Below, piece by piece: positions 32,787 through 51,608 of a stretch of 56,707 nucleotides of DNA. The stretch is from assembly GCA_003667245.1 (NCBI GenBank), contig RCNN01000098.1:1-56707 (forward strand). Reading direction: 5' to 3'. A program made the translations under genes and the position numbers. The notes beneath the pieces were generated by a model that had not been told where the DNA came from, made no database searches, and saw only the letters and a program-made list of their open reading frames with translations. Positions within the stretch are counted from its first letter, which is position 1. Each line of letters begins with the position of its first letter. Source of the stretch: Heterostelium multicystogenum. Taxonomy: Eukaryota > Evosea > Eumycetozoa > Acytosteliales > Acytosteliaceae.

Positions 32787-32897
32787 CGGGTCGTTTCCGG
32801 TTGGGGCAGGGCGCCGATTATACGCCAGGGCAATCGGCGCGACATTGACCTGCGTCCGTCTGCCGCAGACTTACCACCCTGCGGGAACACAGTCAAA

Positions 32898-32990
32898 ATG
32901 TGGGAGCGGGCTTGCTCGCGAATGCGGTGGATCAGTCAGCACATTCGGTGCCTGGCACACCGCATTCGCGAGCAAGCCCGCTCCCACATT
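32898..32990 (+). repeat. REP inverted pair
   Basis: Full units in inverted order around TCAGTCAGCACATTCGGTGC. It lies upstream of the DUF2788 gene and after the 3' end of the Lrp gene. Confidence 0.92.
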
Positions 32991-33005
32991 TGTTCCGCGC
33001 TGGTC

Positions 33006-33485
33006 TTAAGTGCGCAGGTGGGTCAGCGGCAGCTCGGTGCTGTTGAGCACCTGGTTCAGCACAAAGCTTGAACGCACGCTGGTGACGCCTTCGATGCGGG
33101 TCAGGTGGCCCAGCAGCAACTTCTGGTAGTGATCCATGTCTGGCACCACCACTTTCAGCTGATAGTCGGCGTCCATCCCGGTCACCAGGCTGCATTCCAG
33201 CACTTGCGGCAAGGTGCGGATGGCCGCTTCGAAGTTCTCGAAACGTTCGGGGGTGTGTCGGTCCATGCCGATCAGCACGTAGGCCGTCAGACTCAGGCCG
33301 AGCATCTTGCGGTCGAGCAAGGCGACCTGGCGGGCGATGTAGCCGTCGTCTTCAAGTTGCTTGACCCGGCGTGAGCACGGCGAAGGCGACAGGCCGATGC
33401 GCTCGGCCAACTCCTGGTTGGAGATCCTCGCGTCGCGCTGCAATTCCGCCAAAATACTCAGGTCGTATCGGTCAAGTTTGCTCAT
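33006..33485 (-). CDS. Lrp/AsnC family transcriptional regulator
   Basis: 159 residues: AsnC-type winged HTH at the start (LDRYDLSILAELQRDARISN, SPSPCSRRVKQLEDDGYI) and the RAM ligand domain (VLECSLVTGMDADYQLKVV). Ligand probably an amino acid. Unbroken. Transcribed away from the structured intergenic region at 33590-33797. Confidence 0.93.
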   Translation of the reverse strand: MSKLDRYDLSILAELQRDARISNQELAERIGLSPSPCSRRVKQLEDDGYIARQVALLDRKMLGLSLTAYVLIGMDRHTPERFENFEAAIRTLPQVLECSLVTGMDADYQLKVVVPDMDHYQKLLLGHLTRIEGVTSVRSSFVLNQVLNSTELPLTHLRT

Positions 33486-33589
33486 GGGGCTGGCCTTTGT
33501 CGTAACTATTGCGGTGAATTATCTATCCAGGGTTAAAATTGCGCAAGCACTGTTTATTGACGCAATCTTCGCAATCATCTGCCCGAGGC

Positions 33590-33797
33590 CGAGGCGTAGA
33601 GTTATCAACAGAATCACTGCCCGGACATACAGTCCACTGCAGCCCGCCAATAAGGCCGGCTGCGGCCGCCAACCCCACAGGGTTGCCCCGGCCCCCGGGC
33701 TGCACACTGTCCACAAGACGGCGTGAGGTGAGCCGACGTCAAAAGCGTTGAGCCAGGACGAAGTTCTCAAGGGGCGACCGACGGGTCGCCCCTTTTT
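33590..33797 (+). ncRNA. Candidate structured RNA ending in a terminator
   Basis: This 412-bp gap (33486-33898) has no convincing gene. Stems can be drawn in it: GCAGCC/GGCTGC, CAACCC/GGGTTG, CCCGG/CCGGG and GACGGC/GCCGACGTC. A strong terminator closes it. It may be a small RNA or the leader of a transcript that stops early before the DUF6515 gene. It does not match tmRNA, 6S, RNase P or RsmX/Y/Z as I know them. Confidence 0.35.
33769..33797 (+). terminator. Strong Rho-independent terminator
   Basis: GGGGCGACC (33771-33779), loop GACG, GGTCGCCCC (33784-33792), then T5, with AA/TT extending the stem. It is over 100 bp upstream of the DUF6515 start and points toward it, so it ends something transcribed from within the gap. 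Confidence 0.85.
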
Positions 33798-33898
33798 ATT
33801 GCCTGCGAAAATAGTTCTCGTGACTGATAACCTCTCGCAGAACCGGGCCCCGGTTTTCCAGTCTTACGTGTAGGCCCTAATCCGCAGTGAGGAATAGC

Positions 33899-35029
33899 AT
33901 GAAGCGCATCTGGCGTTTGGCAGGTGTTGGTTTGCTGATGATGAGCGTTGGTGCGCAAGTGATGGCCGACGACCCGCCACGCCAGGAAGGCGGTGGTCAG
34001 CATGAAAGAGGCCCGGAAGGGCATCCAGGCAATAATCAGCCTCGGCCGCAGAACAACCAACCGCGACCACAAAATAGTCAACCGCGCCCTGTAGCCCCTC
34101 GGCCCGAGAACAATCAGCCGCGTCCGCAGAATCAGCATTTCGAAAACAATCAGCCACGGCCGCAGAACCAGAACATTGAGCGCCCGAACGGAGGTGGCCA
34201 GTGGCAAAGTCGCCCGCAAGGCAATCAACAGCAACCTCCGCACCCGGCGCCGCAGCCGGCCAATAACCTGCCGATCCAGGGTCGCCCGGATACCGTGCGC
34301 CAGACCCAGGAACCGCGTCAGGGCAATTACCAGGACATCCCGCGTCGCAACGACGGCAACCAGCATTGGCAGGCCGGCAATGGCGGCCAGGGTGGCCCGG
34401 GCCGGCCCGGCTTCAACGGGGGTAACGGCGGTGGCAATAACCACCCCAACGATCACCGCTGGCCAGGCCGCCCCGACGGGCACGGCAATGGCTGGGGCCC
34501 AGGCCCGCAATACCGTCCGGGTTACATCGTCGACCGCTTCCCCGACCGCAATTACCGCGTGCCGTATCGCGGCCAGGACTACTTCTTCTCGGGTGGCTAC
34601 TGGTATCGCCCACAAGGCCCGCGCTAATGTCGTCGTGACGCCGCCTTACGGGATTCGCGTGCAATACCTGCCCGACTACGCGCGGGAAGTGTGGGTGGGC
34701 AGTGCGCTGTTCTTCCTCGCCGCCGGTGCCTATTACACCTACGAAGAAAAGCAGCCAGCAGTACGTTGTGGTGCAGCCGCCACCCGCCGCGCCAGCGCCG
34801 CAACCCGTGCCCCAGGGCAATGGTTATGACGTGGTGGCTTACCCGGCCAACGGCCAGTCACCGGCGCAGGTCCAGCAGGACGGTTACGACTGCTATCGCT
34901 GGGCCGTGCAACAAAGTGGCTTTGACCCAAGGACCGTCACCTACGCCCCCGACCCGGCCGTGGTGCAAACCTACCGCCAGGCCCAGGGCAAACTGCCTGA
35001 GCAGTCGCGGGTATCAGGTGCAGTACTAG
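33899..35029 (+). CDS. Secreted DUF6515-type protein with NNQPRPQ repeats
   Basis: About 375 codons. Signal peptide MKRIWRLAGVGLLMMSVGAQVMA. Then a long low-complexity part built of NNQPRPQ-type repeats (about residues 42-95) and Gly/Pro/Asn-rich stretches, followed by an RcnB/DUF6515-like module (IVDRFPDRNYRVPYRGQDYFF, GIRVQYLPDYAREVWVG, ANNVV-type strand). The end shows YDCYRWAVQQSGFDP as in glycine-zipper/DUF6515 proteins. Breaks near 34622, 34752 and 34993. An envelope or periplasmic role is likely; exact role unknown. Confidence 0.8.
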
Positions 35030-35918
35030 GCCTTCGCGCCCTTGACCACTTCCTGCGGGTCGGCGTGCACCAGCACTTCGGCTCGCGGGTAGGCGTTGTG
35101 GATGGCATCGGCGGCCTGGTCGCTGATGCCATGGGCCACCGACAGACTCAATTCCCCCGGTAACTCCAGGTGCAACTGCACGAACCAGTGGCTGCCGGAA
35201 ATCCGCGTGCGCAAGTCATGTGCACCGAGTACACCGGGCACACTGCAGGCCAGTTCCAGCATGTGCTGGCTGACATCCGGCGGCAGTTCCTCGTCCATCA
35301 GCACCGAAAAACTTTCCGGGCGATCTGGATGGCGCTCCACAAAATGTAGGCCGCGATGCCCAGCCCGAACCAGGCGTCCACCTGATGAAAACCAAACGCC
35401 GCCAGCACCAGCGCCACCAGGATGCTGCCGTTGAGCATCATGTCTGAGCGATAGTGCAGCGAGTCGGCGCGGATGGCGTTGGAGCCGGTTTCGCGGATCA
35501 CCCGGTATTGCAGGATCAGCAGCGCCGCCGTCAACGCCAGGGACAGAACGATCACGCCAATACTCAGCCATGGCGCGCCCACAGGTTCCGGATGCTGCAA
35601 ACGCTGGAACGCCTGGAAGGCGATCAACACCGCACTGCCGGCGATGAACAACGCCTGGGCCATGCCCGACAGGGATTCCGCCTTGCCATGGCCATAACGA
35701 TGATCGTCATCGGCCGGGCGCAACGCGTAGTGCACGGCCAGCAAGTTGAGCAGCGAGGTAACGCCGTCGAGCAGCGAGTCGGTCAGCCCGGCGAGCATGC
35801 TCACCGAGCCGCTGAGCCACCAGGCGATGGCCTTGGTCACAATCAGCACACAGGCCACGCCGACGGAAGCGCGGGTGGCCAGGCGCAACAGCCGGGCGTG
35901 TTCGGGACTGGTGGTCAT
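35026..35918 (-). CDS. fieF: Cation diffusion facilitator (FieF/YiiP type)
   Basis: Proton-coupled exporter of zinc, iron or other divalent metals. Six helices with the metal-site motif DSLLDGVTSLLN and the second site DSLHYRSDMMLN; the HRYGHGKAESLSG loop follows helix III. C-terminal cytoplasmic domain (VLMDEELPPDVSQ, GAHDLRTRISGSHWFVQLHLE). One break near 35318 between the halves. The overlap with the DUF6515 gene's stop is four bases, tail to tail. Confidence 0.9.
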
Positions 35919-35933
35919 GGGGCGGGTCAGTCC

Positions 35934-36353
35934 TTAAGCGGCGGGTTGCAGGCCCAGGGTGGCGAGTTGTTGCACGCTGCCCTTGAACTGGATCATGCGC
36001 GGGTCGTCCAGCGGCAGATTGCGCCCGGTTTCTTTCTGGATGATGGTTTGCAGCTTGGCGTTGTCGACCTTGCCGTCGGCGCCGATGGCTTGCTGGAGTT
36101 TTTCCGGAGCTACCTGGGCGGTTTTGCCCGGCTCGAAGTAGATCGCGCCGGTGGCGAAGTCGACACCAAAGGCGATCAGGCCCGGGATCACGTAGAACAG
36201 CAGGCCGACCGCATCGAGCACGGCAATTGCCGGGTCGATCTTGCCGTCGATCTGGCCCCGGCGGTCGGGGTAGAAAATCGAGCCGCAGGCCGTCAACTGG
36301 CTCAGCAGGGTGACGGCCAGAACACCGCCGATGACACGGGAAGCAACACGCAT
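35934..36353 (-). CDS. Conserved lipoprotein
   Basis: 139 residues from MRVASRVIGGVLAVTLLSQL at 36353. Lipobox LTAC, then GSIFYPDRRGQ, a hydrophobic stretch (VLDAVGLLFYVIPGLIAFGV) and a charged C-terminal half (IQKETGRNLPLDDPRMIQF). Pseudomonas homologues are sometimes mislabelled as polynucleotide nucleotidyltransferase; nothing in it supports that. Role unknown. Confidence 0.75.
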   Translation of the reverse strand: MRVASRVIGGVLAVTLLSQLTACGSIFYPDRRGQIDGKIDPAIAVLDAVGLLFYVIPGLIAFGVDFATGAIYFEPGKTAQVAPEKLQQAIGADGKVDNAKLQTIIQKETGRNLPLDDPRMIQFKGSVQQLATLGLQPAA

Positions 36354-36415
36354 GGGACTCTCCTTGAACATAATGAAAATGACTATAAGCCAGTCTACAA
36401 GGCGACGATGATCAA

Positions 36416-36507
36416 GTGTGGGAGCTGGCTTGCCTGCGATGGCGGTGGTTCAGTTTCAGGTGTGTTGGCTGACACACCGCTATCGCAGGCAAGCCCGCTC
36501 CCACCTT
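36416..36507 (+). repeat. REP pair, second subtype
   Basis: GTGTGGGAGCTGGCTTGCCTGCGATGGC with inverted GCTATCGCAGGCAAGCCCGC. The stem core differs from the GCTTGCTCGCG type in the rest of the window. Confidence 0.88.
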
Positions 36508-36603
36508 TGACCGCATTCCAGTCAGTACGGGGCCGTGTCGTTGAGACCACCACCGACACCCGGCAGTTCGCCGTTATACTCGCCGCTCTGCTTTGGAGCC
36601 AGT

Positions 36604-39108
36604 ATGAATTCGTTGCCAATCGATGATGTTTTACCTGCCCTGCGTGACGCCCTGGCGACGCGCCATGAAGCCGTGCTCGAAGCACCGCCCGGCGCCGGTA
36701 AAACCACGCGGGTGCCATTGGCGCTGTTGAATGAACCCTGGCTGGCCGGGCAAACCATCCTGATGCTCGAGCCCCGCCGCCTCGCCGCCCGTGCAGCGGC
36801 AGAAAGGCTGGCCAGCGAGTTGGGGGAAAAGGTCGGCGAAACCGTTGGCTACCGCATTCGCCTGGACAGTAAGGTCGGCCCCAACACCCGTATTGAAGTA
36901 GTCACCGAAGGCATCCTCACCCGTCGCCTGCAGGATGACCCGGCACTCGACGGCGTGGGTTTGTTGATCTTCGACGAGTTCCACGAACGCAGCCTGGACG
37001 CCGATCTGGCGCTGGCCCTTAGTCTCAATGGTCGAGACCTGTTTCGCGACGAGCAGCCACTGAAGATCCTGCTGATGTCCGCCACCCTGGAAGGCGAGCG
37101 CCTGGCCGGGTTGCTGGACGACGCGCCGATCCTGCGCAGCGAAGGGCGCATGTACCCGGTGCAGATGCGCTGGGGCCGGCCGTTCCAGCCCGGTGAATTT
37201 ATCGAACCGCGGTTGGTGCAGACCATCCTTGAAGCCCTGCATGATGAAACCGGCAGCGTGCTGGTGTTCCTGCCGGGGCAGGCCGAGATTCGTCGGGTTA
37301 ATCAGCAATTGGCTGACGCGCTGGGCGATAACCCCGATGTGCTGCTATGCCCGCTGCACGGCGAACTGGACCTGGCCGCCCAGCGCGCCGCCATCGACCC
37401 GGCGCCCGCCGGCAAGCGCAAAGTGGTGCTGGCCACCAACATTGCCGAGACCAGCCTGACCATCAACGGCGTGCGCGTGGTGATCGACGCCGGGTTGGCG
37501 CGGGTCCCGCGTTTCGACCCGGGCAGCGGCATGACCCGTCTCGACACCCAGCGCATCTCCCGCGCCAGCGCCACCCAGCGTGCCGGCCGGGCAGGGCGCC
37601 TGGAGCCGGGGGTGTGTTATCGGTTGTGGTCCGAAGACCAGCATGAAGGGCTGGCGGCGTATTCCAGTGCGGAAATTCTCTCGGCGGATCTTTCCGGTTT
37701 GGCGCTGCAATTGGGCCGCTGGGGCGTGGCGCCTACTCAGTTGGTATGGCTCGACGTTCCGCCCACCGCGGCTTATGCACAGGCCCAGGATTTGCTCGAG
37801 CGCCTCGGAGCGTTGAGCGATACCAAGCTGACCGCCCACGGCCAGAAAATGGCCGGGTTGCCGGCGCACCCGCGAATCGCTCATTTGCTGCTGCGTGGTC
37901 AGGATCTGGGCCTGGCGAGCATGGCCTGTGACGTGGCGGCACTGTTGGGTGAGCGCGATATCCTGCGTGGTGCCGGTGCGGATTTGCACAGCCGCCTGGC
38001 CCTGTTATCCGGTGAAGAAAAGGCCCGTGGCACCCAGGGCGGCGTGCAGCGTGCCCGGCAACTGGCGCGGCAGTACCGTGGCTATTTAAGAGGCAAGGCA
38101 GAGCAGCCGGTGGCTGATCCCGATCATCCGCGCTGGCTCGGAGCCTTGCTGGCGCTGGCCTACCCGGACCGCGTCGCCCAGCAACGGCGGGCGGGCGGTG
38201 CCGAATACCGCCTCGCCAACGGCCGTGCCGCGTTGTTCGCCGAAGCCGACAGCCTGATGAAACAACCCTGGCTGGTGATTGCCGATCTGGGCAGCCGCCA
38301 GGGCCAGCGTGAAGAACGGATTTACCTCGCGGCGGATTTTGATCCGGCGTTGTTCGACTCGGTGTTGGCCGAACAGGTGCGCAAATGTCGACCAACTCGA
38401 TTGGGACGAACGCGAGGGCGTGCTGCGGGCCGAACGCCAGCGCAAGGTCGGCGAACTGGTGCTCAGCCGCGAGCCGCTGACCGGCCTCGACGAATCCGCC
38501 CGCAGCCAGGCGCTGGTCAACCTGGTGCGGCGCAAAGGCCTGGAACTGCTGCCGTGGACCCCGGAGCTGCGCCAATGGCAGGCGCGGGTGATGCTGCTGC
38601 GTGGTCTGGATAGCGGCAAGGCCAGTGAATGGCCGGATGTCAGCGACAGCGCCTTGCTTGCCAGCCTGGAACACTGGTTGATGCCTTACCTGGGCAAGGT
38701 GTCGCGCCTGAGCCATTTCGCCAATCTGGATATTTCCAGCTTCCTGCATAACCTGCTGCCGTGGCCGTTGCCGGCGCGGTTGGACGAGCTGGCGCCGCAC
38801 CATCTGAAGGTGCCGTCGGGCTCGTCGGTGCGGCTGGACTACAGCGAGCAGCCGCCGATTCTGGCGGTGCGCTTGCAGGAATTGTTCGGGCTGGCGGATA
38901 CGCCGCGGATTGCCGGCGGGCGGCAGGTGGTCAAGCTGCACCTGTTGTCACCGGCCAGACGGCCCGTGCAGGTGACGCAGGACCTGGCGAACTTCTGGCG
39001 CAGTACTTACGCCGAGGTGAAGAAGGATTTGAAGGGGCGGTATCCGAAGCTATTCCATAAGTTAGACCCTTGGGTTGAATCGCTTAACAAGAAAGAAATT
39101 GACAAGTA
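36604..39108 (+). CDS. hrpB: ATP-dependent helicase HrpB with replaced C-terminus
   Basis: DExH-box helicase: Walker A APPGAGKTTRVP, DEAH-like FDEFHERSLDADL, MSATL, NIAETSLTINGVR, QRAGRAGRLEPG, the HA2 and OB regions and a HrpB_C domain. Start MNSLPIDDVLPALRD at 36604. One inserted A near 38385 breaks the frame. The final native residues are absent: after KGRYPK (to 39049) the frame runs into an inserted element and ends ...LNKKEIDK at 39106-39108. The 20 native C-terminal residues (HYWPDDPLIAEPTARIKPRK) are at 48037-48099. The helicase core is complete, so it may still work. Confidence 0.92.
39047..39050 (+). other. Left junction (AAGC)
   Basis: Last native hrpB codon AAG plus C; the sequence diverges from hrpB after it (CTATTCCATAAG). 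Confidence 0.8.
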
Positions 39109-39165
39109 GAGATTGCGCATTAACACCTAACGTTCAAAATTGACTCATTCCTTTGAGGGTGAGTC

Positions 39166-40585
39166 ATGTCCTATTCCAATCCGCGTTACGAAGGTCGCTT
39201 GGTGTTGATTCCCGCATGTGCGGGATGCCTTCGCGAGCGTGCACATCGCTGAAAAGCCTAGCGGCTCCATTGAGTTATCGCTTGAAGGGGCTGATTCGAA
39301 GCTGCTTTATCAGGTCGATGAAATCGGGGCGTCAAACGGTTCAGGCGATATCTACAACTATCCATTCCTATTTCACAGAGACGGCGATCCGTGGTTTGAG
39401 GCTAATTCATACCTCCGGAGCTTAGTCGAAGATAAGAATTTAACTAATAGACCTACTGACGATACCCGTCGCCGGGCCAGCAAGCTTCTGGACTACTTAA
39501 TCTACTGTGAGGAAGAAGGGCTTGACTGGCTGGACTTTTCAGGTCGTCGTCCAGTGCTGCGACCTACATATAAGTATTTTGCCCATCTGGTGAATGAAGG
39601 TAAGCGTAGTGCGGCTGTCATAAACCAATACACAGGCGTAGTGTATGATTTTTACAAGTTTGTAAGTGCCAATTGGCATGATATTGATATGCAGCGAGTC
39701 GATTCGGTACAGGAGGTTAAGTTTCTTATAAAGAACTCATACGGCGCGGCTAGGGTAATCACGGCTGAGAAACGCAGCCAAACGAAGACGAAGGCTCCCA
39801 ACAGTTTAGTGTCAATAGGCTATATTAGAGAAGACGGGGAGGAACTGCGGCCACTCTCGAATACCGAACTGGCCGAGCTCATGGGCATGCTGCGGAGCAA
39901 TGAATGGTCGGCCTTAGAGCGACTTATTCTGCTTACGGCATTGATGACAGGGGCGCGCAAGCAGACCGTTCTGACGATGCGCCTTAAGCATTTGAAGAGC
40001 TTTACGTCAGAAAATTTGCAGGGCGATGGCACTTATCTTTTGTATGCTGGCCCAGGTACGGGTATTGATACAAAAAAGGACCGCAGCCAGCGGTTGCATC
40101 TGCCAAAACAGCTTGCCGAAGAACTAAAGGTTTTGACAAATAGTCCGGTGATGAAGAAACGGCGAGCCAAACTGCGTGAGCATCTGGCGAAAGAATATCC
40201 AAGCCTGTTCATGAGTGATGACGATATGTATGTCTTTCTCTCTGATCAAGGCGGCTGTTATTACATGGCAAAAGACGACCCTCGGTACCCGGTCGTGAAA
40301 TCTCGACCTATGGGACAGGTAGCGGACACTATTAAACGAAAACTTCTAAAAAAAACGTCTGCTAAATTTCCCAGAGATTTCACGTTTCACTGGTTGCGTG
40401 CGACTTTTGCGTTTCAACTGTATCAGCGTCTTCGTGAGCTAATTGCTACAGGCGTTATGCAGCCAGGCGACGATATTGATTTTATCAAAGAGCGTATGCA
40501 CCACACTTCACGGGAAATGACCGAGCATTATTTGCAGTTGTTTAAGATGCTGCCTCAAAAACTAGTCGCTCAAGAGTTCTATTGA
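39166..40585 (+). CDS. Tyrosine recombinase, first gene of the trio
   Basis: About 473 codons from MSYSNPRYEGRLVLIP (ATG 39166, GAGGGTGAG site), with one break near 39205. Full catalytic set: Arg in MTGARKQTVL, His and Arg in FTFHWLRATFA, His in MHHTSREMTEHY and the nucleophile Tyr at the end of that motif (about 40532). It should cut and join DNA at the element ends. Compared with the flanks the DNA is AT-rich. Position and size match TnpA/GmtY-like members of three-recombinase elements. It starts 58 bp after the new hrpB stop, so read-through from hrpB could feed it. Confidence 0.87.
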
Positions 40586-40635
40586 GGCAGCACTATTTTT
40601 TAATGGCTACACTGATCTGAAGCTGGATGCACAAG

Positions 40636-42566
40636 ATGAATAGTCAGGAAAAAATGGTCTTCCGGAATACAAATGTAATTACTCGTGATAAAATTAGTCG
40701 TGAGTTTCTGCGCCCAGAACTTCTTCGTTTGCAAACTCAGTGATGCAAGGGTTAAGAAGTCACCTATTGATATCGGAAGTCTCGCTTATTTCAAACGTGC
40801 AGTAGGTTCCAGGGGGGATGCTGATAAAGGTATTCCTGTCGTCGAATCATCATTGGTAGAGAGTCGCCGTAAACTGATTATAAATCTGCTGGATTGGTTA
40901 CAAGGCTTTCGCGATGCAACTGTACTTCTTCGCTGGAGATTATTAGAGGGTGTTGTCGCTTGGCTTAATGAAAATGGTTGTGTGGATGTATTCAGTGATG
41001 CCATTCAGGCGTCTAAAGCATATATCGCTTATACTGATTATTTGAATCGTTTGCTAATGGGTGGGAAATTTTCTCCAAGGCACGCTAATGCGCTTCAAAA
41101 AACCTTTCAGCAAATTATTAAGTTGCAGTTGCCGGACGATTTAAAATATATAGTCCGTGGTGCTGTGGTGATTTCTCCAACAAGAAACAACATAAGGCCG
41201 CCTAGGCAGTCAGACGTTCAAATGTTTAAGGACGTTTGCTTGGCGGTTAGTCGTTGCTATAGTGAGTTTTTACTTAATCAGAAGCCGTACCCATGCGTTG
41301 TGAAGATTAGAGACTATGAAGTAGTAAAGTTTCCGTCAAAGTCGGGGGCGGTTGGCCCGATCAGTGAATGTCCCCCTTGTTATAATGTAGAGCATAGACG
41401 TATTTCTACTCTTGATGAATACGTTTTGCGCCTTGAGAAAAAAGGACGCAAGGTTGTAGTAGGTAACATCAAATTCGATCTTAAGAAAATTCAAGACAAC
41501 TTTGTCGCTGCTAACATTGATGGGCGACATTATGATCGGATTCTAATGGCTGCGTTAGCGGCAAAAGCATACGCAGCGCTCTTTTTACTGATTACTGGTG
41601 CGTCCCCCACTGAGTTAGAGCAATTTGAGTATGAGGACGCTCTGGAAGTCGAAAAAGTCATCGCTGAAAAAAGAGTTGAGTGCCATAAAGTTTCGAGCCG
41701 GCGGAAAAGAAACGGGATATGTTCTTGGTCGAAAAGAGGGGCTGCCATTGCTCAGAGAGTATTTAAAACTCCGCGAGTGGATTCTCGATGGTCAGCCATT
41801 CGACAAACTGTTTTTCACGATTAGCAGTAAGGGGGGAGAGTTTGGGCGGGTTTTTACTAAACTCCATGCGCCTGACTCCATGCAAACGTTTTATAATTCA
41901 ATTTCAGGTGTGTTTCTCGATCAAAAGTATCCCAACATAACCTCAAGAAAGATTCGTAAGCATAAAAGCAATGTGCAGCATGCAGCTCGCTTTTCGCCTG
42001 ATACTGTGGCTAAGTCACTAAACCATACTAGGGCGGTTAATTTTTTGGCGTATGCCGAAGCGACTCTTGAGCAGCAGGAGTCTGAGTTCGGCGCCTATTG
42101 GGAGTCTGTGCGCCATGCCGCTCAGAAGGTACGGAAGCGCAGCGAGAGTCCGTCAGAAACGACGATATCTATCGCTACGGGCCACTGTGAGGCTTTCAAT
42201 TCCCCGACTCCTATACTCTATTCTGACTCTTTTGTAATCGAGCCGAACTGTCGTACCCAATACGGTTGCCTGTATTGCACGTACTACGTTTGTCACTCGG
42301 ACGAAGAGGACGTGCATAAGCTTCTAAGCCTGGGCTATGTGATTAATGCGGTGCGTAATACAGCGAGTGATATCAGTCATGCAGAGACGCTATTTAAAGA
42401 TTTATCTATCAGAATTGAGTTTATCCTAGATGCCATCTCGGATCGCTCGGAGGTAGTGGCTCAGATGGTTGCGCGAATGAAAAATAAAGTATACGAACTT
42501 GGCGTGCTTACACAATTCTGGGAAACACGCTTGCAGCGTTATGAGCAAATGGGGGTGGTATTTTGA
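40636..42566 (+). CDS. Recombinase-like protein with altered active site, second gene of the trio
   Basis: About 640 codons from ATG 40636 (MNSQEKMVFRNTNVIT), with breaks near 40735 and 41655. The region that should hold the first catalytic Arg reads FLLITGASPTELEQF, so Arg is replaced by Ser. The second box reads TSRKIRKHKSN without the usual His, and the end has LNHTRAVNFLAYAEA with a possible Tyr. A Cys cluster CRTQYGCLYCTYYVC (about 42250-42294) could bind zinc. This suggests a structural or DNA-binding partner rather than a catalyst. It may match GmtX-like members; inference. Its TGA overlaps the next gene's TTG. Confidence 0.8.
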
Positions 42567-44619
42567 ACCTTGTTGCCGCAAGCAGTTTGTTCGCTGGTAT
42601 CGAGGGGGCTGCTGCTGTTGCACCGGATGTAGCCATGCAACATGGGGCTATCGCGCCTAGTCCAGACTTTGTCTTATGCCGAGATAGTGATGGCAACGCA
42701 ACAGCTGTTTATAAAGAACAAGTTTGGGACTTCAATCCCTATAGGCTCAGCGCGAAAAAACTGAATAAAATCTATTTTTATACGATTTTTTGGATCGAAC
42801 GGAGTTGAGCAGCAGTTGTTGATTGAAGAGGCGAAATATATTTTGTATTGTCTAATTTATTTCGCGGGCGGCGGGCGCTTAGGTAAGCTTAGTGCCAGTA
42901 CTGTAGCGAATTATTGGTTTGTGATTCGCGCGGCACTTATTTTTTGTGATCGACAAAAACAGAAGCCAGCTGTAGGTAATTTAACCCTAAGGCAGCTATT
43001 AACCACTCCTGTCTATTTAGCCGTATTCCTTAGTGAGAACAAGAATAGTCACATGACCATAAGGCTCGTTTCTAGCCTTCTCAGGGCGTTGATACTTGTT
43101 GGTGAGGATCGTTTGGGTTATCGAGTAGTTAGTGCAGGCGATCTTAAATTCAACAGAGGCGTTTATTACCAGCACCCTGTCATCCCTACCCGAATTTATT
43201 TGGGCTTGATCAATAGCTTGTCAGATCTGTTAGATCAAATGCACGGAGGTGTCGAACGTTTTGAGTCATTCATAACCAACTTTGATGATGTCTATTACGG
43301 GCTACAACAGTCCAATCAGAGTGCATTGGGGATTGGTGGGAAAGCGTATTTCAGGCCGGATATGGCTGATGCCCTGAAGCAACACGGCTTGGATGAAGTG
43401 TTTATTGGTGAGTTTTCTTGCGATCGCAAGAGGTATTTTAGTTCTGTTCTGCTCAGGATGCAGTATGTATTAAAGCTGGTCATTCACTTATATACGGGCA
43501 TGCGAGATCAGGAGGTATTGCGTATGCCATATAACTGCCTAACCAATGAAGTCTATATAAAAGAAACGGTTGATGACAGCGGCGTAGTGCGTGATAGGGT
43601 CAAAGCTGTGAGTATCCTTTCAACGACTACCAAGTTTACGGCCTACAAAAAAACAGAGTCATGGTTCGCTCCTGGAGAGGTTGTTAGTGCGGTGAAAGTC
43701 GCACAGGCGATTTGTCGCGGGCTTGCAAACTTGTACAAAATCAACACTGATGATAATTGCCCGCTCTTTCTCAACCCAGCGATCCTGAAAAATAAGCAGT
43801 CAGAAGTTGGTATAGGAAGCCTTGCTGCGTCAAATGTAAAATTCGCCGCAATTAAAGATCTTTTAATCGAACCATCCGACTTGCAGGAGCTATCTCAAAC
43901 CGATACTAAGCGCGATTTTTACAGTGAGGCTAAATTTGCAATCGGCCAACCATGGCCGCTGACAAGCCATCAATTTCGCCGTTCTCTGGCTTTCTATGCT
44001 AGCAACAGTGGTTTTGTGTCATTGCCGAGCGTGAAATCGCAGTACAAACACATGACCATTGAAATGGCTCGGTATTACAGCAACGGTTTCGAAAATCTCA
44101 GGACGATTTTTGGTTACTATGACCCCGAAAAAAAGGAGTTTGTACTGCCTCCCTCGCATGTTGCGCTGGAGTTCCAGATGGGTATGCCGATGGCTGTAGC
44201 CAACCAACTATTATCTGATGTGCTGTTTAGGGACGCTCCACTCTTTGGTGGCACCGGCTCCTATATGGAGAAGCAAAAAGCTCGCTTGGATAAAGCCGAG
44301 GTATGTATTGAAGCTGTTCGCGCCGAAACCGTGGCGCGGGTAAAGAATGGTGATATTAGCTATCGTGCGACGCTGCTCGGCGGTTGCACCAAAATTGGCC
44401 GATGCGATGCCTTCCTGCTCGGTAACTATACCGAGTGTCTTTCCTGCGAAGACGCAATTATCAAGCCGGAAATGGTGAACGCTGCTATTTGAAGCTATAA
44501 GCGCGGAACTCGTGAATTATGCAGAGAGCTCGGGGGAGTATCAAATTACAAAGGGCGACCTTGAACGGCTATTACAGTTTAAGGCGCGGTTGATCGACAG
44601 GTTGGAGGTTTCGAATTAA
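42563..44619 (+). CDS. Tyrosine recombinase, third gene of the trio
   Basis: About 685 codons. The likely start is TTG 42563 (TTTTGA overlap with the upstream stop); the frame breaks near 42787 and 44491, after which it runs to TAA 44617-44619. Catalytic residues: Arg in LYTGMRDQEVLRM, His and Arg in LTSHQFRRSLAFYAS, His and Tyr in YKHMTIEMARYYSNG. A Cys set near the end, GGCTKIGRCDAFLL and TECLSCEDA, looks like a zinc site. Matches TnpB/GmtZ-like proteins in length and order. The stop overlaps the ATG of the small gene by one base, so all are coupled. Confidence 0.83.
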
Positions 44620-45031
44620 TGAGCCGAGGACTGATTGCATGCGAGGAAGCCTTACAGCGCCTTCTTGATGGAAAACCTATAGTGCCCGGTCATGGGGGCT
44701 TGGATCTTTCAAAGATTACGGCCAGCATCGTTAGCCTAGAAGCCGGGTTCGACCGAGGTTATTTAAAAAAGTCTCGAAAATCTCATTTGCCGCTATTAGC
44801 AAAAATTGAGATTTGTCGTGCGGAGGCTTGCAAGGGGGGCAGATCGTCAAATCGCCAAAAAATTGAACGTCTCGAAGAAAAATTTACAGGTATTGGAATA
44901 TGAACTTGCAATCACCCAGGCGCAACGTAACCGGATTCTTACACAGAAATCTCCAGTTGTGGGAGCGCGTTCGAGAGTTGGAGTTGGCGGTGGTTCAATA
45001 CAAATCCCTGAAAACCCGGCTGCATCATTGA
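44619..45031 (+). CDS. Small coiled-coil protein at the end of the recombinase operon
   Basis: About 137 codons with breaks near 44830 and 44950. N-terminal part MSRGLIACEEALQRLLDGKP and a region with DRQIAKKLNVSKKNLQVLEYEL, then a leucine-rich helix (NLQLWERVRELELAVVQ) ending at TGA 45029-45031. It resembles the small TnpC-type proteins of Tn554 relatives in size, position and predicted coiled coil; these affect orientation and frequency of transposition. Function inferred. Confidence 0.65.
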
Positions 45032-45065
45032 TAATGGCCGGGCATAGACAGCATTATTGAGGTGC

Positions 45066-45485
45066 TTACACCGTTTTGCTGAGTGGTTTGGCCTCTACAG
45101 AGGCCAGCCACTCTTTTGAAATATCGCGATCCTCTGCCAGTAAAACTAATACGCGAACCGATTTGTTGCTGTCTATTTTTTCAAGCAAGCTTGCGGACGC
45201 GTGGATAGCAAGAATTGCTTCGTAGGTTTTATAGGTTTCGATGGTTTTAGTTGACTCAAGTTCTATTGAAATTCCATTTATGGTTATTGATTGGTTGTTT
45301 CTTAGTTTATTTAATTCTGGTGATTTAAAGATTTCGCTTAAGAATTGCTCGCAGCTTGAAATTGAATTTACAAAAATTGTGAGTTTTTTCATGCCTTCTG
45401 ATGCAAGGCTGAGTGATAAATTCAGGCCTGCTTGCAATTCTTCTGGTGTGAGAAAATCACTGAGGTAGCTGTAAGTATTTCTCAT
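45066..45485 (-). CDS. Hypothetical partner protein of the HEPN gene
   Basis: 139 residues, MRNTYSYLSDFLTPEEL to ...SVEAKPLSKTV, unbroken. No domain recognised. The ATG overlaps the stop of the HEPN-type gene (ATGA), so the two are translationally coupled and probably act together. Strongly AT-rich. The sequence looks soluble and has alternating helix and strand segments. It could be a regulator, an antitoxin-like partner or a sensor; nothing in it decides this. Confidence 0.7.
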   Translation of the reverse strand: MRNTYSYLSDFLTPEELQAGLNLSLSLASEGMKKLTIFVNSISSCEQFLSEIFKSPELNKLRNNQSITINGISIELESTKTIETYKTYEAILAIHASASLLEKIDSNKSVRVLVLLAEDRDISKEWLASVEAKPLSKTV

Positions 45486-46203
45486 GGGGGTTCCTTGGTT
45501 GGCTGGTGTGCTCTGATTAATAAGAGCTTTATCCAGGCCCAGTAAGCAAAGTCGGTTTGATTGTTAGTTAGGGAACAAGCTCGCGCACGGCGTTCTCTAA
45601 AAGAATTAATGTCCTCTCCATTACCGTATTTCCGTTCCATTGGTTTGAGTAAATGAATCGTCCCGGGGTTATGCTTTGCGCTTAGATGAAGTCACGCCGA
45701 AGGGTGAAGCAGAAATTAGCTTGATAAAACTGCCCCAAGCCTTGTCTGACTTATGGGCGATTGCATTTCTGATGCGCTTCAGTTTTGCAATATCGTCATT
45801 CGTAGCTTGCGTTAACTTAAAGCGATGGTTTGCGCCAAGAAATATGTTTGGCTCTTGACTCAATAGAACTAAAGCTTGACCATTCAATGAATTTTTCTGG
45901 GTGGTCTGGATGGCTTAGTATTTTCTCTGCAAGTCTAAGTGCTGCGCCTTTAGTCCTAAATTTCGATATTTCTTTTTTTAGAATTCCTGAGGTGTCTGTT
46001 GCAAGCTCCAAAATAAGCAGGTCTCGACATACAGATTCCCAGTAAGTTAGGGCGCTAATAAATAACCCTTCGCTAAGTTTATGTACGTCAGGAAAGGTAA
46101 ATATCCCGTTTCTGCCTACATTTCCTGAAACCTTTAGGAAGGCTTGCCGTATATGAGTAATAGAGAGCAAAAAATCGTCCCTAATACTTTCTGGAGTTGC
46201 CAT
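45482..46203 (-). CDS. HEPN-domain protein (frameshifted), possible RNase of a defence system
   Basis: About 240 codons from MATPESIRDDFLLS (ATG 46203). It is helical throughout and carries RNAIAHKS near the C-terminal third, an R-N-x-x-x-H motif typical of HEPN nucleases; the upstream LTYWESVCRDLLI helix fits the MAE_28990-like HEPN group. Breaks near 45855 and 45675; after the second, a sensible reading continues (ERKYGNGEDINSFRERRARA) to a TGA that overlaps the start of the 139-aa gene. HEPN proteins often cut RNA in abortive infection and toxin-antitoxin systems. That role is inference here. Confidence 0.72.
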
Positions 46204-46299
46204 CACGCAGTTCCTTCTCTTGTGCCCTAACTGTTTGTGTTACACCGCGTTAGATTGCGGTGTATTTGCTTTCCAGTGTCTCGTGATTTTTTGTCTAGC

Positions 46300-46551
46300 T
46301 TAAGGCTGATCGCGGTATTCCGGCATCGCTGAGACGGAGGCGATACACGATTTGGGTAATCGCACAGACTTTCCCACCCAGGTGCATTCGACATGCCTTG
46401 CATTGTATTTGACCAGCACGCTTTGTCGCCCTGACAGGAGGAGAACGACCCGTAACAGCCCCTCACGTCCAGTAGCTGTCTGTAAACATAAATCCGTAAC
46501 CAACAGATGGCTGGCTATGGCACGAATCAGGCTGACGGGAGGTAAGTACAC
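46300..46551 (-). CDS. Possible small hypothetical protein
   Basis: 83-codon frame, MYLPPVSLIRAIASHLLVTD... to ...SAMPEYRDQP, overlapping the end of the secreted-protein gene by 25 bases on the same strand. A stretch LLLSGRQSVLVKYNARHVEC reads like a folded protein, but an overlapping plus-strand frame of similar size exists and no family is recognised. Outside it, 46204-46299 holds only an ACACCGC/GCGGTGT hairpin near 46243. Confidence 0.3.
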   Translation of the reverse strand: MYLPPVSLIRAIASHLLVTDLCLQTATGREGLLRVVLLLSGRQSVLVKYNARHVECTWVGKSVRLPKSCIASVSAMPEYRDQP

Positions 46552-47436
46552 CAGAGCTTCTTATCCTCAGCATTCCTACCGGGCTTCCAATAAACCTCGC
46601 CAGACAGCTCGTTAGGCACCTTGTAGACGATCTTCGTGTTGAGCTTGATGAGAGGGTTCAGCGACCGCAAACGGATTCCGTAGCCATCGCTCATGATGGT
46701 TTCAGTCGTATCGAATTTGAAATCTTTGTCATCCTTGCTGATGAACAAGCTGCCTTCGAGTGGTAGCCGACCTTCGTTATCAGTGTTCTTGAAGGTCGCG
46801 TTCACGGTGAGGAATCGCGCATCGGGATCTGACTTCACGGCGGAGTAGCGGTTGCCGGTGTCGATGGATTTGCTGATGGTGCAGTCATTAACTGTCACAT
46901 CGAAGTAGCCTACTTGACCATGCATGGCTTCCTGCTTCGCTTTAAGCCCTTCGAGGTAGCTTGTGGCATAGATGTTGTAGCTGTTCGTCGCGGTGTCGCC
47001 AATGGCGTCTATACGGCAGAAAAGTGTATCGACAGTGCCCTTGGTCCACTTATGGTTCTTGTTCTGCTCGATGCGCGAATTTTCAGCCACGGTAAGGTCA
47101 TGGGTCATCTGCAATGCAAGCCCTTTCTGCTTAGCTAGATCCTTGATTTTTCAGAACATCGGCATTGAAGTCTGCGCCTTTCCGGCGTGCGTAGAAGTCG
47201 GCCAAAATCGCATCTTTACCAAGCGCGAAGCGCAGAATCTGTGCTGTCGAAATGTCCTTCTGGTTAGAGAGAAAGTAGTCGTTCTCTTCCTCTGTGAGAT
47301 TGGACCCATCGAACGTTACGGCTGAACAATCAGGCAGTTCAGTCTTCGTTGTGCCCTTTTTGGCAGTTGCGGCAGAGGCGAAGCCGGGTACTGCGAGACA
47401 GGTCATCAGAGCCAAGGCAAGGCGGCTGCGGTGCAT
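46527..47436 (-). CDS. Secreted protein with DUF4352-like immunoglobulin domain
   Basis: About 300 codons. Signal peptide MHRSRLALALMTCLAVPGFASA at 47436, then a helical part (LTEEENDYFLSNQKDISTAQ, ALGKDAILADFYARRKG), a break near 47148, and KQKGLALQMTHDLTVAENSR leading into a beta-rich C-terminal domain (RFLTVNATFKNTDNEGRLPL, FISKDDKDFKFDTTETIM) like DUF4352 telokin-type domains. A tail VYWKPGRNAEDKKLWCTYLP follows. Probably periplasmic or surface. Cargo of the mobile element; role unknown. Confidence 0.7.
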
Positions 47437-48033
47437 TTCAAATCCCTTTGTGCAAGTGGTGTGATGGGTGAAGCCTATTCGTATGGCATGTGGCTATCAA
47501 CTGAGTCGTCCTGCATTTTATAGATACGCTCGAATGACTGCTTTTGGCCCAATTGACAGGTCAGGTCCAATGCAAATGGGTGGTCAGATCCATGCAATTA
47601 CACAAGAGTTACGCGAAACCGAGCTACCTCCTGGATTCAAAGCATCAGCGCTGACGCTATCCATTTGCCAACGCTATGTCCACCGTCCGCCTTGGGTCAT
47701 TTCTCTCCGGGGCAATTCGTGGCCGGTATCTTTGAATGCCTTTTGCAGGCGATTGTCCGCAAAAGCGAAGTTGGGGACGTCACCGGCAAGGGAAATGGTG
47801 GTCGCGCGTGGGCAATACTGCTTCGAGATAGTGTCAATGTACTAATGGTTTTTGGCGGAGTTGAAGTCGATTCAAACGTGCATTCCCTGTCAACCTACTC
47901 ATTGGCCAGGTCGGATTCTGTCAATCCAATCTCTGAGGTTTGACTGTCACGCGCTGTCAACAATTTTCGAGTCGAAAGCCTTTGATTTCGGGGGGAAGGG
48001 GCCTGTCAAACCTCATGACGTCAAGGTACTGGC
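47437..48033 (+). other. Gene-free right end of the element
   Basis: 597 bp without a convincing gene; frames of 90-125 codons on the plus strand (47468, 47665) show no family and mixed codon use. The last 200 bp are dense in TGTCAA motifs, which probably form recombinase or accessory-factor sites. Confidence 0.6.
47832..48009 (+). repeat. Cluster of five TGTCAA motifs at the right end
   Basis: TGTCAA at 47832, 47888, 47919, 47955 and 48004, all in the same direction, and a TGTCAC at 47945. The mirror TTGACA occurs at 39099 near the left end. Likely binding sites of the recombinases. Confidence 0.6.
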
Positions 48034-48099
48034 AAGCATTACTGGCCGGATGATCCGTTGATTGCTGAACCGACTGCCCGGATCAAGCCGAGAAAGTAA
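48034..48099 (+). pseudogene. hrpB: Displaced 3' end of hrpB
   Basis: AAG CAT TAC TGG CCG ... reads KHYWPDDPLIAEPTARIKPR, then K and TAA at 48097-48099: the normal end of HrpB in pseudomonads. It has no start of its own and is cut off from the rest of the gene by ~9 kb. It marks the right edge of the element and proves where the insertion occurred. Confidence 0.93.
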
Positions 48100-48114
48100 G
48101 TACATCGCAGATCT

Positions 48115-48222
48115 AATGTGGGAGCTGGCTTGCCTGCGATGGCATCACCTCGGTCTGTCGGATAGACCGAGGTGCCTGCATCGCGGGCAAGCCCGGCTCC
48201 CACACAAGCCAGCTCCCACACT
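48115..48222 (+). repeat. REP cluster, second subtype, with nested hairpin
   Basis: ATGTGGGAGCTGGCTTGCCT, then a perfect 11-bp hairpin CACCTCGGTCT/AGACCGAGGTG (48146-48156, 48164-48174), inverted GCGGGCAAGCCCGGCTCCCAC and a third partial unit GCCAGCTCCCAC. Confidence 0.88.
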
Positions 48223-48237
48223 GTTTCGCCGCGTGGC

Positions 48238-49325
48238 TTACTGCGCGGCGGGCAACAGGAACCGCGCAATCACCGGCAAATGATTGGAGATACGCACCGT
48301 ATCGCTCTGGCGCACCTTGCTCTCAACCTTCTTGATGCGCGAGCTGTGGAACAGGTAATCCAGCGTACGATCCGGCCCCTCTACGGTTGGGTCATTCGGG
48401 AAATATGTCAGCCACTGGTCCCGGTCAATCCCGCTGGATTGGCTGTTGCTCGGGATCATCGGGTACTTTTCCCACAGCAGGTGCAGCTCACTGTCCGGCG
48501 AGTATTGCCCGCGCTTGCCGGGGTCCAGGCGCAGGAACTGTCCCAGCGGCATCAGGTTGAAATCCCCACCCATCAGCCATGGCGTGCCGCGGCTCTCGAA
48601 TTTATCCACCAGCTTGACGGTCGCCTGCACCTGTTCCAGCACGGCGTTGTGCCCGGGGGCCGCGCCGTCCAGGCGAGTATTGAGCACGGCCAACTGGCCG
48701 CCATCGCTCAACGGCAGGTAGGTCAGCAATAACGCAGGTTTGGGCTGGAACTGACGGCTGATCAGGTTGGCGCGTGCTACCGGCAATTGCAGGCGCTCGG
48801 CGTGTTCGATCTGGTAGCGGCTCATGGTCACCAGCTTGCGACCGACGCTGCCGAAGATATGCAGGTCGGGCACGAAGTCGGCTTTCCAGTCGAAGGCCTG
48901 GGCGCTGCACGGGTAGAGGTCGGCCAGGCGCTCCTGGAGCAAGGCCAGTTGGTCCTGGTAGCTGGAAGGCTTGGCGCCTTCGTCGACTTCCTGCAACAGC
49001 AGGATGTCGGGCTGCTCGTCGCGGATCACCCGCGCCACTTCGTCGAGGCTTGAAGCCATGTCTTCAACGGTCGGGCGGTCGTCCGGGCCGCTGCCGTCCG
49101 GGGTGTCGTACCAGAACACGTAGTTCTTGCCCGCCAGGTACTGCACGTTCCAGGTCATGACCTTTAGCGCCTGCCCAGGCAGCAGGGTCGGCGCACGGGG
49201 CGCGACGCAGCGGATGGGCAGGGTTTCCTTGTCGGCAGGGCGCCAGGTCAGGCTGTAGATCAAGCCGGTCAGCAGGGCCGAGAGATCAGCAGGCCCAGCA
49301 AGGTAATGCGCAGTAGTCGGGTCAT
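48238..49325 (-). CDS. Endonuclease/exonuclease/phosphatase family protein
   Basis: About 362 codons. N-terminal membrane helix (MTRLLRITLLGLLIS, ATG 49325) with a break near 49283, then the EEP fold: VMTWNVQYLAG, ILLLQEVDEG, LNTRLDGAAPGHNA, GGDFNLMPLG and the catalytic His in RISNHLPVIARF. This fold hydrolyses phosphodiesters in DNA, lipids or small molecules; the membrane anchor suggests a periplasmic or membrane substrate. The GPDRTLDYLFHS segment carries the second Asp of the site. Confidence 0.88.
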
Positions 49326-49365
49326 CGGCTCGGCTTATGGCGTTGCAGGACAGGCCCGGAGCATA

Positions 49366-50025
49366 TCACCGCGCGTCGGCGTCGCCACCAATCAACATGA
49401 ACAGGCGGAACAACACCACGCTGGTGAACAGTTGCAGGAAGCTTTGTGCGCTGTCGATCAGCAGGCCAGCAGCGGGTTCGGGTCCGGATAGACCGCCACG
49501 CTGGCGCCCTTGAGCAACCACAGCGGGGTCATCACGCACAGCAGGCACACCAGGATCCGCCAGAAATGCCCACGGGTCAGGCGCAGGCTTTCCTTCATGG
49601 CCGACAGCGCCGACATGCCCCGCAGCACCAGCAGGTATTCGGCGAAAGCCAGCACCACCATCAGCCACAGGCCGGGCAGGAAATACAGCGACAGGCCCAG
49701 CAAGATCAGGCAGCGTGCTGATTGCCGTCAGCAGGGCAAAGCGCGGCCACAGGGTCAGGGCCATGGCCAGCACATCCAGGGTGCGCGGCGATTCTCCCCG
49801 GGTGCGGGCGTCGAGGAACAGGATCAGTGCGCCGGTGTACAGCGGGTACACCAGCAGCCCGATCACCACGCTGTAACCGGGAAACGCATCTGGGCCGAGC
49901 GTGTGGTCGAGCACCTGTTGCAGCAGGGCTTCGAGGATCACCAGTGGCAGGCACAACTGCACGATGGCGCCCAGGTTGCGCTTGAAAAAGAAGAAGGAGT
50001 CGCGCAATACGTCTAACGGATTCAT
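49366..50025 (-). CDS. YciC-like inner membrane protein
   Basis: About 220 codons with several membrane helices: FFFFKRNLGAIVQLCLPLVI, PGYSVVIGLLVYPLYTGALIL, LYFLPGLWLMVVLAFAEYLLV, FWRILVCLLCVMTPLWLLKG. Breaks near 49715 and 49462. Matches the YciC/UPF0259 family of unknown function. Start MNPLDVLRDS at 50025. Confidence 0.8.
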   Translation of the reverse strand: MNPLDVLRDSFFFFKRNLGAIVQLCLPLVILEALLQQVLDHTLGPDAFPGYSVVIGLLVYPLYTGALILFLDARTRGESPRTLDVLAMALTLWPRFALLTAISTLPDLAGPVAVFPARPVADGGAGFRRIPAGAAGHVGAVGHEGKPAPDPWAFLADPGVPAVRDDPAVVAQGRQRGGLSGPEPAAGLLIDSAQSFLQLFTSVVLFRLFMLIGGDADAR

Positions 50026-50204
50026 CAGGGTCTTCACAGGCCGAAAAGCAAGGGCGTTACTTTAACCGATCATGAGCAGATGCAAGCAAACGTAAACCTT
50101 GCGTAAAGACCATTGAAACAATCAGCAACAGCCCCATAACTGGGTTGTACCTTGCACATCGTGCGCAAGGCGAAGATTTCTACCGGCAATCTAACGAGGT
50201 CGCC

Positions 50205-50977
50205 ATGAACAGCGAAGAACAAACCCTGATCGACGGACTGTTTTTCACGGTTGCAGCAAGCCGAAACGGACTCAGCCCCCCGCGACGCCCAGGCTGAAGC
50301 GCGGATCAAGGAACACGTCACTCGCCAACCGGCCGCTGCGTACTACATGACCCAGTCGATTCTGGTGCAAGAGCACGCGATCAAGAGCCTCGATGCGCAG
50401 AACAAGCAGCAGGCCCAGCAGATCCAGGAGTTGCAGGACCAACTGCAACAGGCCAGGTCCCAGGCGGCGCAGCCTGCACCGAGCAGTGGCGGTTTCCTGT
50501 TCGAGCATTTTCGGCGGCGGTTCCCGTGACCGCAGCCGACCCAGAGCGCACCTGCGTCGTCGGGCGGTGGCTGGCGTGAACCAGCGCGTCCGTCGTTTGG
50601 GCGGGCAACCTGCGCCGCAGCAGAACTACGGTGCTCCCCAGCAGAACTATCAGCAGCCACAACAGGCACCCGCAGCGCCGATTGGCAGCGGTTTCCTCGG
50701 CGGCGCCCTGAAAACCGCAGCTGGCGTGGCCGGTGGTGTGATGCTGGCAGAAGGCATCAGCAGCCTGTTCAGCCACAACTCGCAACAACCGCAAGTGGTT
50801 GAAGAGATCATCCGCGAAGAGCCGGCCCCGGCAAGCGACAACGGCAACTGGGGCAACGACGACCAGAAATATGCCGGCAACGACAGCTGGGGCAGCGATA
50901 ACGCCTCCGACAGCTTCGCCGACAACGACTATTCCGACGACTCCTCCTCCTTTGGCGACGACGATTCCTTCGTCTGA
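50205..50977 (+). CDS. DUF2076 family protein
   Basis: About 256 codons. MNSEEQTLIDGLF at the start, then a coiled segment (AQAEARIKEHVTRQPAAAYY, EHAIKSLDAQNKQQAQQIQE), a Gln/Pro linker, a glycine-rich membrane-like stretch (GSGFLGGALKTAAGVAGGVM) and an acidic Asp/Ser tail ending DDDSFV. This is the DUF2076 layout; members are thought to be periplasmic or membrane ligand-like proteins of unknown use. Breaks near 50247, 50510, 50550 and 50615. A terminator follows. Confidence 0.85.
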
Positions 50978-50988
50978 CCCACACTCAA

Positions 50989-51020
50989 CCGGGGCGCTTC
51001 GTCGCCCCGGGCTGATTTTT
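50989..51020 (+). terminator. Rho-independent terminator after the DUF2076 gene
   Basis: CCGGGGCG (50989-50996), loop CTTCGT, CGCCCCGG (51003-51010), then GCTGATTTTT. Confidence 0.85.
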
Positions 51021-51106
51021 CTCGGAAACTCCCTTGTGGCTGGCATACTGGCAACCTTTCCGGGCCTTTGAGTCCGGGGTCCATGCGCGTGTCATGAGGA
51101 TTTGCG

Positions 51107-51580
51107 GTGAAAAAGATAGCCGTGTTCGCCGATGTACAAAACCTCTACTACACCGTGCGCCAGGCGTACGGCTGTCACTTCAACTACGCCGCCCTGTGGG
51201 CTGATATCAGCCAGCGCGGGCAGATTGTCGAGGCGTATGCCTATGCCATCGACCGTGGCGACAGCAAGCAACAGCAGTTCCAGCAGATCCTGCGCAACCT
51301 GGGTTTTACCGTGAAGCTCAAGCCTTACATCCAGCGCAGCGACGGCTCGGCCAAGGGCGACTGGGACGTGGGCATCACCATCGACATCATGGACGCCGCC
51401 GCCCATGTCGACGAAGTGGTGCTGGCCTCCGGCGACGGTGATTTCGACATGCTGCTGGACCGCATCATCAGCAAGCACGGCGTCGAAGCCGTGGCCTACG
51501 GCGTGCCGGGGCTGACGGCCAACTCATTGATACGCGCCGCCAGCCGCTACGTGCCGATCGAAGGCGCGTTGGCTGCTTAA
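51107..51580 (+). CDS. NYN domain protein (LabA/DUF88 type)
   Basis: 157 residues. PIN-like NYN nuclease fold: IAVFADVQNLYYTVRQ with the first Asp, YAYAIDRGDSKQQQF, KGDWDVGITIDIMD, and VVLASGDGDFDMLLDRI with the acidic pair. Probably a ribonuclease acting on structured RNA. Start is GTG at 51107 with GAGGA nine bases upstream. Unbroken. Confidence 0.9.
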   Translation: MKKIAVFADVQNLYYTVRQAYGCHFNYAALWADISQRGQIVEAYAYAIDRGDSKQQQFQQILRNLGFTVKLKPYIQRSDGSAKGDWDVGITIDIMDAAAHVDEVVLASGDGDFDMLLDRIISKHGVEAVAYGVPGLTANSLIRAASRYVPIEGALAA

Positions 51581-51608
51581 ATAGATTTTTGACGGAGTTG
51601 GAACAGGT

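Follow-up and report, generated by a model that had tools for sequence, protein, structure and literature searches.

Strand-biased circularizing integrative elements (SEs), which include SE-6283, SE-6945 and SE-Pda04Ya311, are a young class of mobile DNA whose movement has so far been seen in few transpositions (PMC10214605, PMC9345347). Three SE integration events are named in PMC10214605. The SE termini, C and C', are imperfect inverted repeats of 13-19 bp, and according to the rule established by experiments, the six bases to the left of motif C travel along with the element and land at its new right end (PMC10214605, PMC9345347). SE-6283 is inserted in bcp and carries a bcp homologue aboard (PMC9345347), and an SE is also carried by pAQU1 (PMC10214605). 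A second class of elements, the GInts (genomic islands with three integrases, ginABCD), insert at gene ends and change the C-terminus of the encoded protein (Bardaji et al, PMC5385486). Here we analyse an element that splits the helicase gene hrpB on contig C98 (G000:C98, RCNN01000098.1), which was taken whole as the window (positions 1-56707) and belongs to a 29.7-Mb, 528-contig assembly deposited under the name Heterostelium multicystogenum. The best explanation of this locus, to which we give a probability of about 0.87, is that an SE-type element has docked in hrpB, brought with it six base pairs of its donor site, and provided a coding left end as a substitute C-terminus for HrpB.

An initial sequence-only reading had proposed that hrpB is split near its 3' end by an insert of about 9 kb with the native tail lying downstream, and both the junctions and an empty site agree with this. 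At the left junction (39050/39051), the hrpB sequence ...GGG CGG TAT CCG AAG C is followed by TATTCCATAAG, and at the right junction ...GTCAAGGTACTG GCAAGC is followed by ATTACTGGCCGG; the native tail of hrpB, HYWPDDPLIAEPTARIKPRK, whose stop codon ends at 48099, is found ~9 kb past the cut after ...GRYPK. In the close relative L010, hrpB is uncut and the two flanks of the window are joined with a 4-bp overlap, AAGC (window 28333-39050 corresponds to L010 1-10667, and window 48034-52218 to L010 10664-14846). Among the 80 nearest hrpB loci, retrieved by a HrpB protein search after an IntA query against genome contigs had given no match, 73 have the native tail in place and uninterrupted and 7 are cut at the same base. 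The continuous flanks in L010 and these counts thus establish the observation as right. The further proposal that both ends are fixed nearly to the base is substantiated by the L010 flanks and by a second copy of the element at a different target site: window 39047-48031 aligns end to end, with 96.1% identity, to positions 7998-16975 of L002, a stretch of the P. amygdali plasmid NZ_CP127046. The element has a G+C content of 46%, against 60-62% in the surrounding DNA. The statement that hrpB reads correctly up to the GRYPK cut needs a correction: the hrpB reading frame is interrupted once within the contig, apart from the element junction.

It had also been suggested that hrpB is an integration target and that the same join would be found in other genomes, and both suggestions are upheld. 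In a sample of 398 genomes of one genus, Pseudomonas, a pattern search found 17 genomes in which hrpB runs into an SE-like left end at the base seen in the window, and a reversed control pattern gave 0 matches. Together with two genomes found by HrpB protein search, 19 genomes are occupied, which makes 20 sites with the window. The left end is of the window's type, TATTCC, in 16 of the 19 and of a second type, TATCACG, in 3. The hrpB tail is apart in all 19: 13 genomes have it on the contig that holds the left end, at a distance of about 6 to 53 kb, and 6 on a different contig, their right ends being paired via the tail itself; in each of the 19, the arrangement is a right end, six nucleotides and the hrpB tail. 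When the TATTCC-type left end was searched alone, without hrpB, in the 398 genomes, 14 of the 15 found were in hrpB. The one outside, near position 3470 of L162 (G120), has four core genes there; locus L202 shows the left-end pattern with no hrpB or core gene nearby.

The pattern of 6-mers at the occupied hrpB sites matches the SE rule of carried donor bases. The halves of the split attachment site (attB) are retained in attL and attR, in the window as in the occupied relatives, and the right 6-mers, whose bases were not fixed by any search pattern, vary between sites (e.g. ACAACC, TGAGCG, CACTCT). The window and the plasmid copy are reciprocal in this respect, the window having CGAAGC on the left and GCAAGC on the right, and the plasmid copy GCAAGC on the left and CGAAGC on the right; four related plasmid genes that are uncut have GCAAGC (L198, L199, L200) or GCAAAC (L201). 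As the two copies carry each other's target letters, it looks as if the element family had moved from hrpB to the end of a recombinase gene on a plasmid and also in the opposite direction. We propose that two active recombinases, with Tfp and Srap, would join the ends C and C' into a circle, which would take the six base pairs to the left of C from the old home, a step borrowed from the SE papers. On insertion, the target's own six base pairs would stay to the left of C and the carried ones would come to lie to the right of C', ahead of the target's right half, both of these placements being those seen at the junctions. For circle formation without an empty site and for strand bias, as expected of an SE, the 6-mer pattern gives support of an indirect kind.

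The core genes support the assignment to SEs, a class that is already known. Their order at the left end, intA, tfp, intB, srap, is the same in the window, in L002 and in pAQU1, where the genes making up the SE were taken from gene order. The L002 copy is intact, with core proteins of 491, 642, 684 and 136 amino acids and four cargo genes. Among the homologues taken from the matches listed, R264, H408, R411, H446 and Y455 of IntA are invariant (23/23 aligned), R314, H469, R472 and Y504 of IntB are kept (35/35), and Tfp has the box I Arg in 0/43, with R and K in place of H and R in box II (43/43) and the tyrosine Y472 kept (43/43). The structural model of Tfp (predicted local distance difference test, pLDDT, 82) has as its first 21 PDB matches in Foldseek XerA, Tn1549 integrase, lambda integrase, Cre and their kin, with probabilities of 0.89-1.00 and E values of 0.015 or worse, none reaching 0.001; a profile search of Tfp against PDB sequences returned nothing related. 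The IntB model, with a pLDDT of 65, was too poor for use. Compared with their pAQU1 counterparts, IntA matches with E 2e-10 (profile comparison), IntB with E 1.4e-10 (hhalign) and the L002 copy of Srap with E 2e-5 (BLASTP, 41% over 51 aa). The element resembles described SEs in the four genes at its left end with the defective recombinase-fold protein in second place, in the 6-bp spacer, in having six base pairs of donor origin at its right end in the new site and in its few target sites, and differs from them in that the target is hrpB, the left end appears to code for a conserved in-frame C-terminus and the terminal inverted repeats appear weaker. By description, the Tn554 family likewise has two active recombinases with a small third protein and carries the donor 6 bp along (PMC10214605), but has no Tfp counterpart and is hosted by Staphylococcus and Enterococcus; recombinase-in-trio elements share the three genes in a row (PMC10214605), but their description as RitA-B-C does not list a small fourth protein.

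The new aspect of this element is that its first bases appear to serve, in the hrpB frame, as a substitute ending of the gene. They read on as LFHKLDPWVESLN, and hrpB is open from its start motif through the new tail in 14 of the 16 TATTCC-type genomes; in the other two (G005 and G385), a further insertion interrupts it near codon 157. We compared 24 left ends (14 from the hrpB-fusion pattern, 2 from the HrpB search, 7 plasmid copies and the window) starting at base 11, where the bases become free of search patterns, leaving aside a genome found solely by a pattern tolerant of third-position changes. Variable columns are found at 6/10 third codon positions and at 0/18 others (Fisher p=0.0006); an earlier version of the test gave p=0.0035, but part of its sequences had been collected by a search that tolerated changes at third positions. 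One of the six variable third positions (GAA/GAT) alters the amino acid, and one element has an H to R change before base 11. As the variation is confined to third codon positions, the left ends appear to encode a selected substitute C-terminus, which would give HrpB the conserved sequence LFHKLDPWVESLN followed by 2-15 variable residues. By eye, it has the spaced residues Y/F...DP.V in common with the native HYWPDDPLV. We propose that the coding capacity of the left end keeps the cut hrpB translatable; with a conserved ending provided in frame by the element, an insertion of the TATTCC type perhaps does not destroy hrpB, and we infer that the fused HrpB works. In the TATCACG type, the peptide is missing, and 3/3 genomes have an additional hrpB of full length that shares 74-77% identity with the L010 gene; this spare copy adjoins the left end in G290 and G086 and lies directly after srap in G008. 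SE-6283, with its bcp homologue, is a precedent for such a spare-gene solution (PMC9345347). With limited confidence, we lean towards the view that in this SE lineage the left terminus doubles as a site of recombination and as coding sequence under selection, by which the hrpB home is kept expressed, and that the sister type uses a spare hrpB instead.

Several points weigh against an SE that carries donor bases into hrpB and completes its reading frame. The comparison of Tfp with pAQU1 Tfp is weak (hhalign E 0.029, probability 1.7%, colinear; E 0.58 in the mismatched control of Tfp with pAQU1 IntB). The inverted repeat C/C' scores 4/13 in the window and in L002, no better than shuffles; scored alongside them were 12 of the 19 relatives (G290, G086, G008, G385, G199, G335 and G007 being left out), of which 11 have 6-8/13 and one has 3/13, with a best shuffle fraction of 0.018. 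The left 6-mer is the hrpB sequence C[CG]AA[AG]C in 20/20 occupied sites, window included, a count (nearly) fixed by the search pattern in the 17 genomes that were found with it; it is also hrpB-like in 7/7 sites found by protein and in 14/14 found by the left end alone. Movement at hrpB is here read from junction sequences alone. The codon test amounts to 13 distinct 38-mers, which are related by descent. Finally, in G008 and G290, which are of the peptide-less TATCACG type, the cut hrpB is still open up to the junction, and an open frame alone is therefore no proof of use; in G086, the cut hrpB falls into two frames. These two open frames out of three also speak for an alternative in which the conserved left-end peptide is a mere by-product of a conserved recombination site and hrpB is simply damaged, as does the fact that the recombinases must recognise the left end and that the sequences past the peptide diverge. 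We regard this alternative as doubtful, although it deserves serious consideration, in view of the distribution of variable columns over codon positions, the open fusions of the TATTCC type and the spare hrpB that accompanies each element lacking the peptide.

With respect to its class, it is improbable that the element is a GInt and not an SE. GInts likewise have a left-end four-gene operon encoding three recombinase-like proteins and a small one, insert at 3' gene ends, alter C-termini and can change 6 bp upon excision (PMC5385486). GInt was in fact the first assignment, dropped on the order of the defective and active recombinases: GInts have an integrase domain in ginA and ginB and a third protein without the first Arg, whereas here the second protein is defective and the third has R-H-R-Y. 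The sites named for GInts are an ABC transporter gene, ssb and a ribonucleotide reductase gene (PMC5385486), and the core proteins of the present element match those of the pAQU1 SE, GInts being set apart by their description. An ordinary cut-and-paste island with AAGC as its duplicated core has a much smaller probability still. It would be in keeping with the presence of tyrosine recombinases and with the AAGC which, as the sequence-only reading stated, is found at both junctions; that tetranucleotide is, however, part of two different 6-mers, CGAAGC and GCAAGC, and the plasmid copy has a foreign 6-mer at its right end. The left and right 6-mers differ in 17/20 occupied sites and are identical in three, the window not among them, so the two AAGC are no target duplication; left and right agree on average at 2.85 of 6 positions, where shuffling between genomes gives 2.80. 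A target-site duplication was accordingly ruled out on 20 junctions. A misassembly or chimera of the contig has next to no probability: the contig does belong to a mixed assembly rich in single-base differences, but the identical junction arrangement recurs in 19 other genomes, which makes such an artefact very unlikely, and a full copy of the element is present elsewhere.

The remark in the sequence-only reading that it knew of no described element using this site has to be narrowed, given that SEs are a known class (PMC10214605) and that PMC8373256, in a single sentence about P. aeruginosa that gives no detail, mentions hrpB as a site of islands. Of the four papers cited there for tRNA genes and hrpB as sites, PMC4821235 and PMC7809047 do not mention hrpB; a further paper, PMC9045249, is unrelated. 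The words 'hrpb' and 'helicase' are absent from the main text of PMC10214605, the supplementary list of SE termini lying outside this statement and possibly containing hrpB. Among the papers listed for hrpB with integrases, genomic islands or insertion hotspots, no account of SEs in hrpB came up, supplements not covered, and the excerpts of the SE and GInt literature offer no precedent for the coding-end solution. Under the SE model, the 20 insertions at a single base of hrpB make up a natural archive, in which each copy keeps six letters of its former home and journeys, for instance from chromosome to plasmid and back, can be read from sequence. There would be two ways of occupying a conserved gene without anything being lost, through an attachment site that is itself coding or through a spare copy of the gene; if this is true, a conserved housekeeping gene could serve the element as chromosomal home and still be expressed.

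The assembly seems to be a mixture with a Pseudomonas genome in it, because a repeat of ~110 bp (window 52497-52612) is common to Pseudomonas L010 and many other contigs of the assembly. The assembly, in which C98 is a Pseudomonas contig, was treated as intron-bearing. Over 9 kb, the element has 14 extra bases, 1 missing base and one 6-base gap relative to L002, and the host DNA has 13 extra and 8 missing bases over 17.9 kb relative to L010; such single-base length differences are spread over the whole contig, element and host DNA alike. These differences and the frame breaks look like assembly error; the broken frames do not prove the element dead, and intact copies are present in relatives. 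The Pseudomonas small RNA P24 is present at full length at window 33539-33792 (255 bits). The features of the locus are collected in the table.

Table. Features of the split hrpB gene and of its probable SE-type insert, in window coordinates.
Feature	Position	Strand	Basis
hrpB, 3'-truncated	36604..39050	+	Open reading frames (ORFs); HrpB_C PF08482 E 7.7e-48; alignment to intact L010 hrpB
attL 6-mer CGAAGC, native hrpB bases	39045..39050	+	Same bases in uncut L010 hrpB
SE-type element, 8,981 bp	39051..48031	+	Whole-length 96.1% match to plasmid copy
Left end: motif C and putative substitute C-terminus in hrpB frame, LFHKLDPWVESLNKKEIDK + stop	39051..39109	+	
intA, tyrosine recombinase; frame broken here, intact in L002	39166..40643	+	PF00589 E 2e-10
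tfp, recombinase-fold protein; frame broken here, intact in L002	40636..42566	+	Predicted structure
intB, large tyrosine recombinase; frame broken here, intact in L002	42563..44619	+	
srap, small fourth core gene; frame broken here, intact in L002	44619..45031	+	
Cargo, 139-aa protein, no family assigned	45066..45485	-	ORF
Cargo, RiboL-PSP-HEPN-like, 211 aa in L002	45568..46203	-	PF18735 E 6.8e-5, below curated cut-off
Cargo, DUF4352-like, 302 aa in L002	46527..47436	-	PF11611 E 2.6e-5 (window piece), just below cut-off
Cargo, 87-aa small protein	47637..47902	-	Annotated in L002, mapped to window
Right end, motif C' position, ...GTCAAGGTACTG	48013..48031	+	Same end in L002
attR 6-mer GCAAGC, read as donor footprint	48032..48037	+	Equals native 6-mer of L002 plasmid site
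Native hrpB tail with stop	48038..48099	+	

The right end of the element occupies the place of ...TGATA in most relatives. With regard to the cargo, the 139-aa protein (L002 copy) has no Pfam or PADLOC match and the 87-aa protein no Pfam match; the HEPN-like gene adjoins the 139-aa gene, and the two are possibly a toxin-antitoxin or defence pair. The element of G004, of ~6 kb, consists of the four core genes with one other ORF of at least 120 aa, antisense to intB. In a scan for defence genes, for which 10 ORFs were picked from 5 loci, GajB and a piece of GajA were found behind the core genes of the hrpB-resident element of G290 (L194 11972-13907), and type I restriction genes in the same position in G086 (L195 1595-4017); defence islands may have a site in hrpB. 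A different element, with the left end TGTTTTGCCAT, cuts hrpB in the DEFH box, at about codon 157, at L196 1977 (G005) and at L193 5797 (G385, minus strand). Each of the two genomes has a further hrpB in that region; the G385 copy contains one stop, and the G005 copy follows Qat-like defence genes. No useful result came from scanning viral contigs or from looking for relatives among phages. Finally, a related element survives on the P. aeruginosa plasmid pPYO_TB (L008 8001-8066) as a remnant, its leftmost ~100 bp, beside a short recombinase gene.

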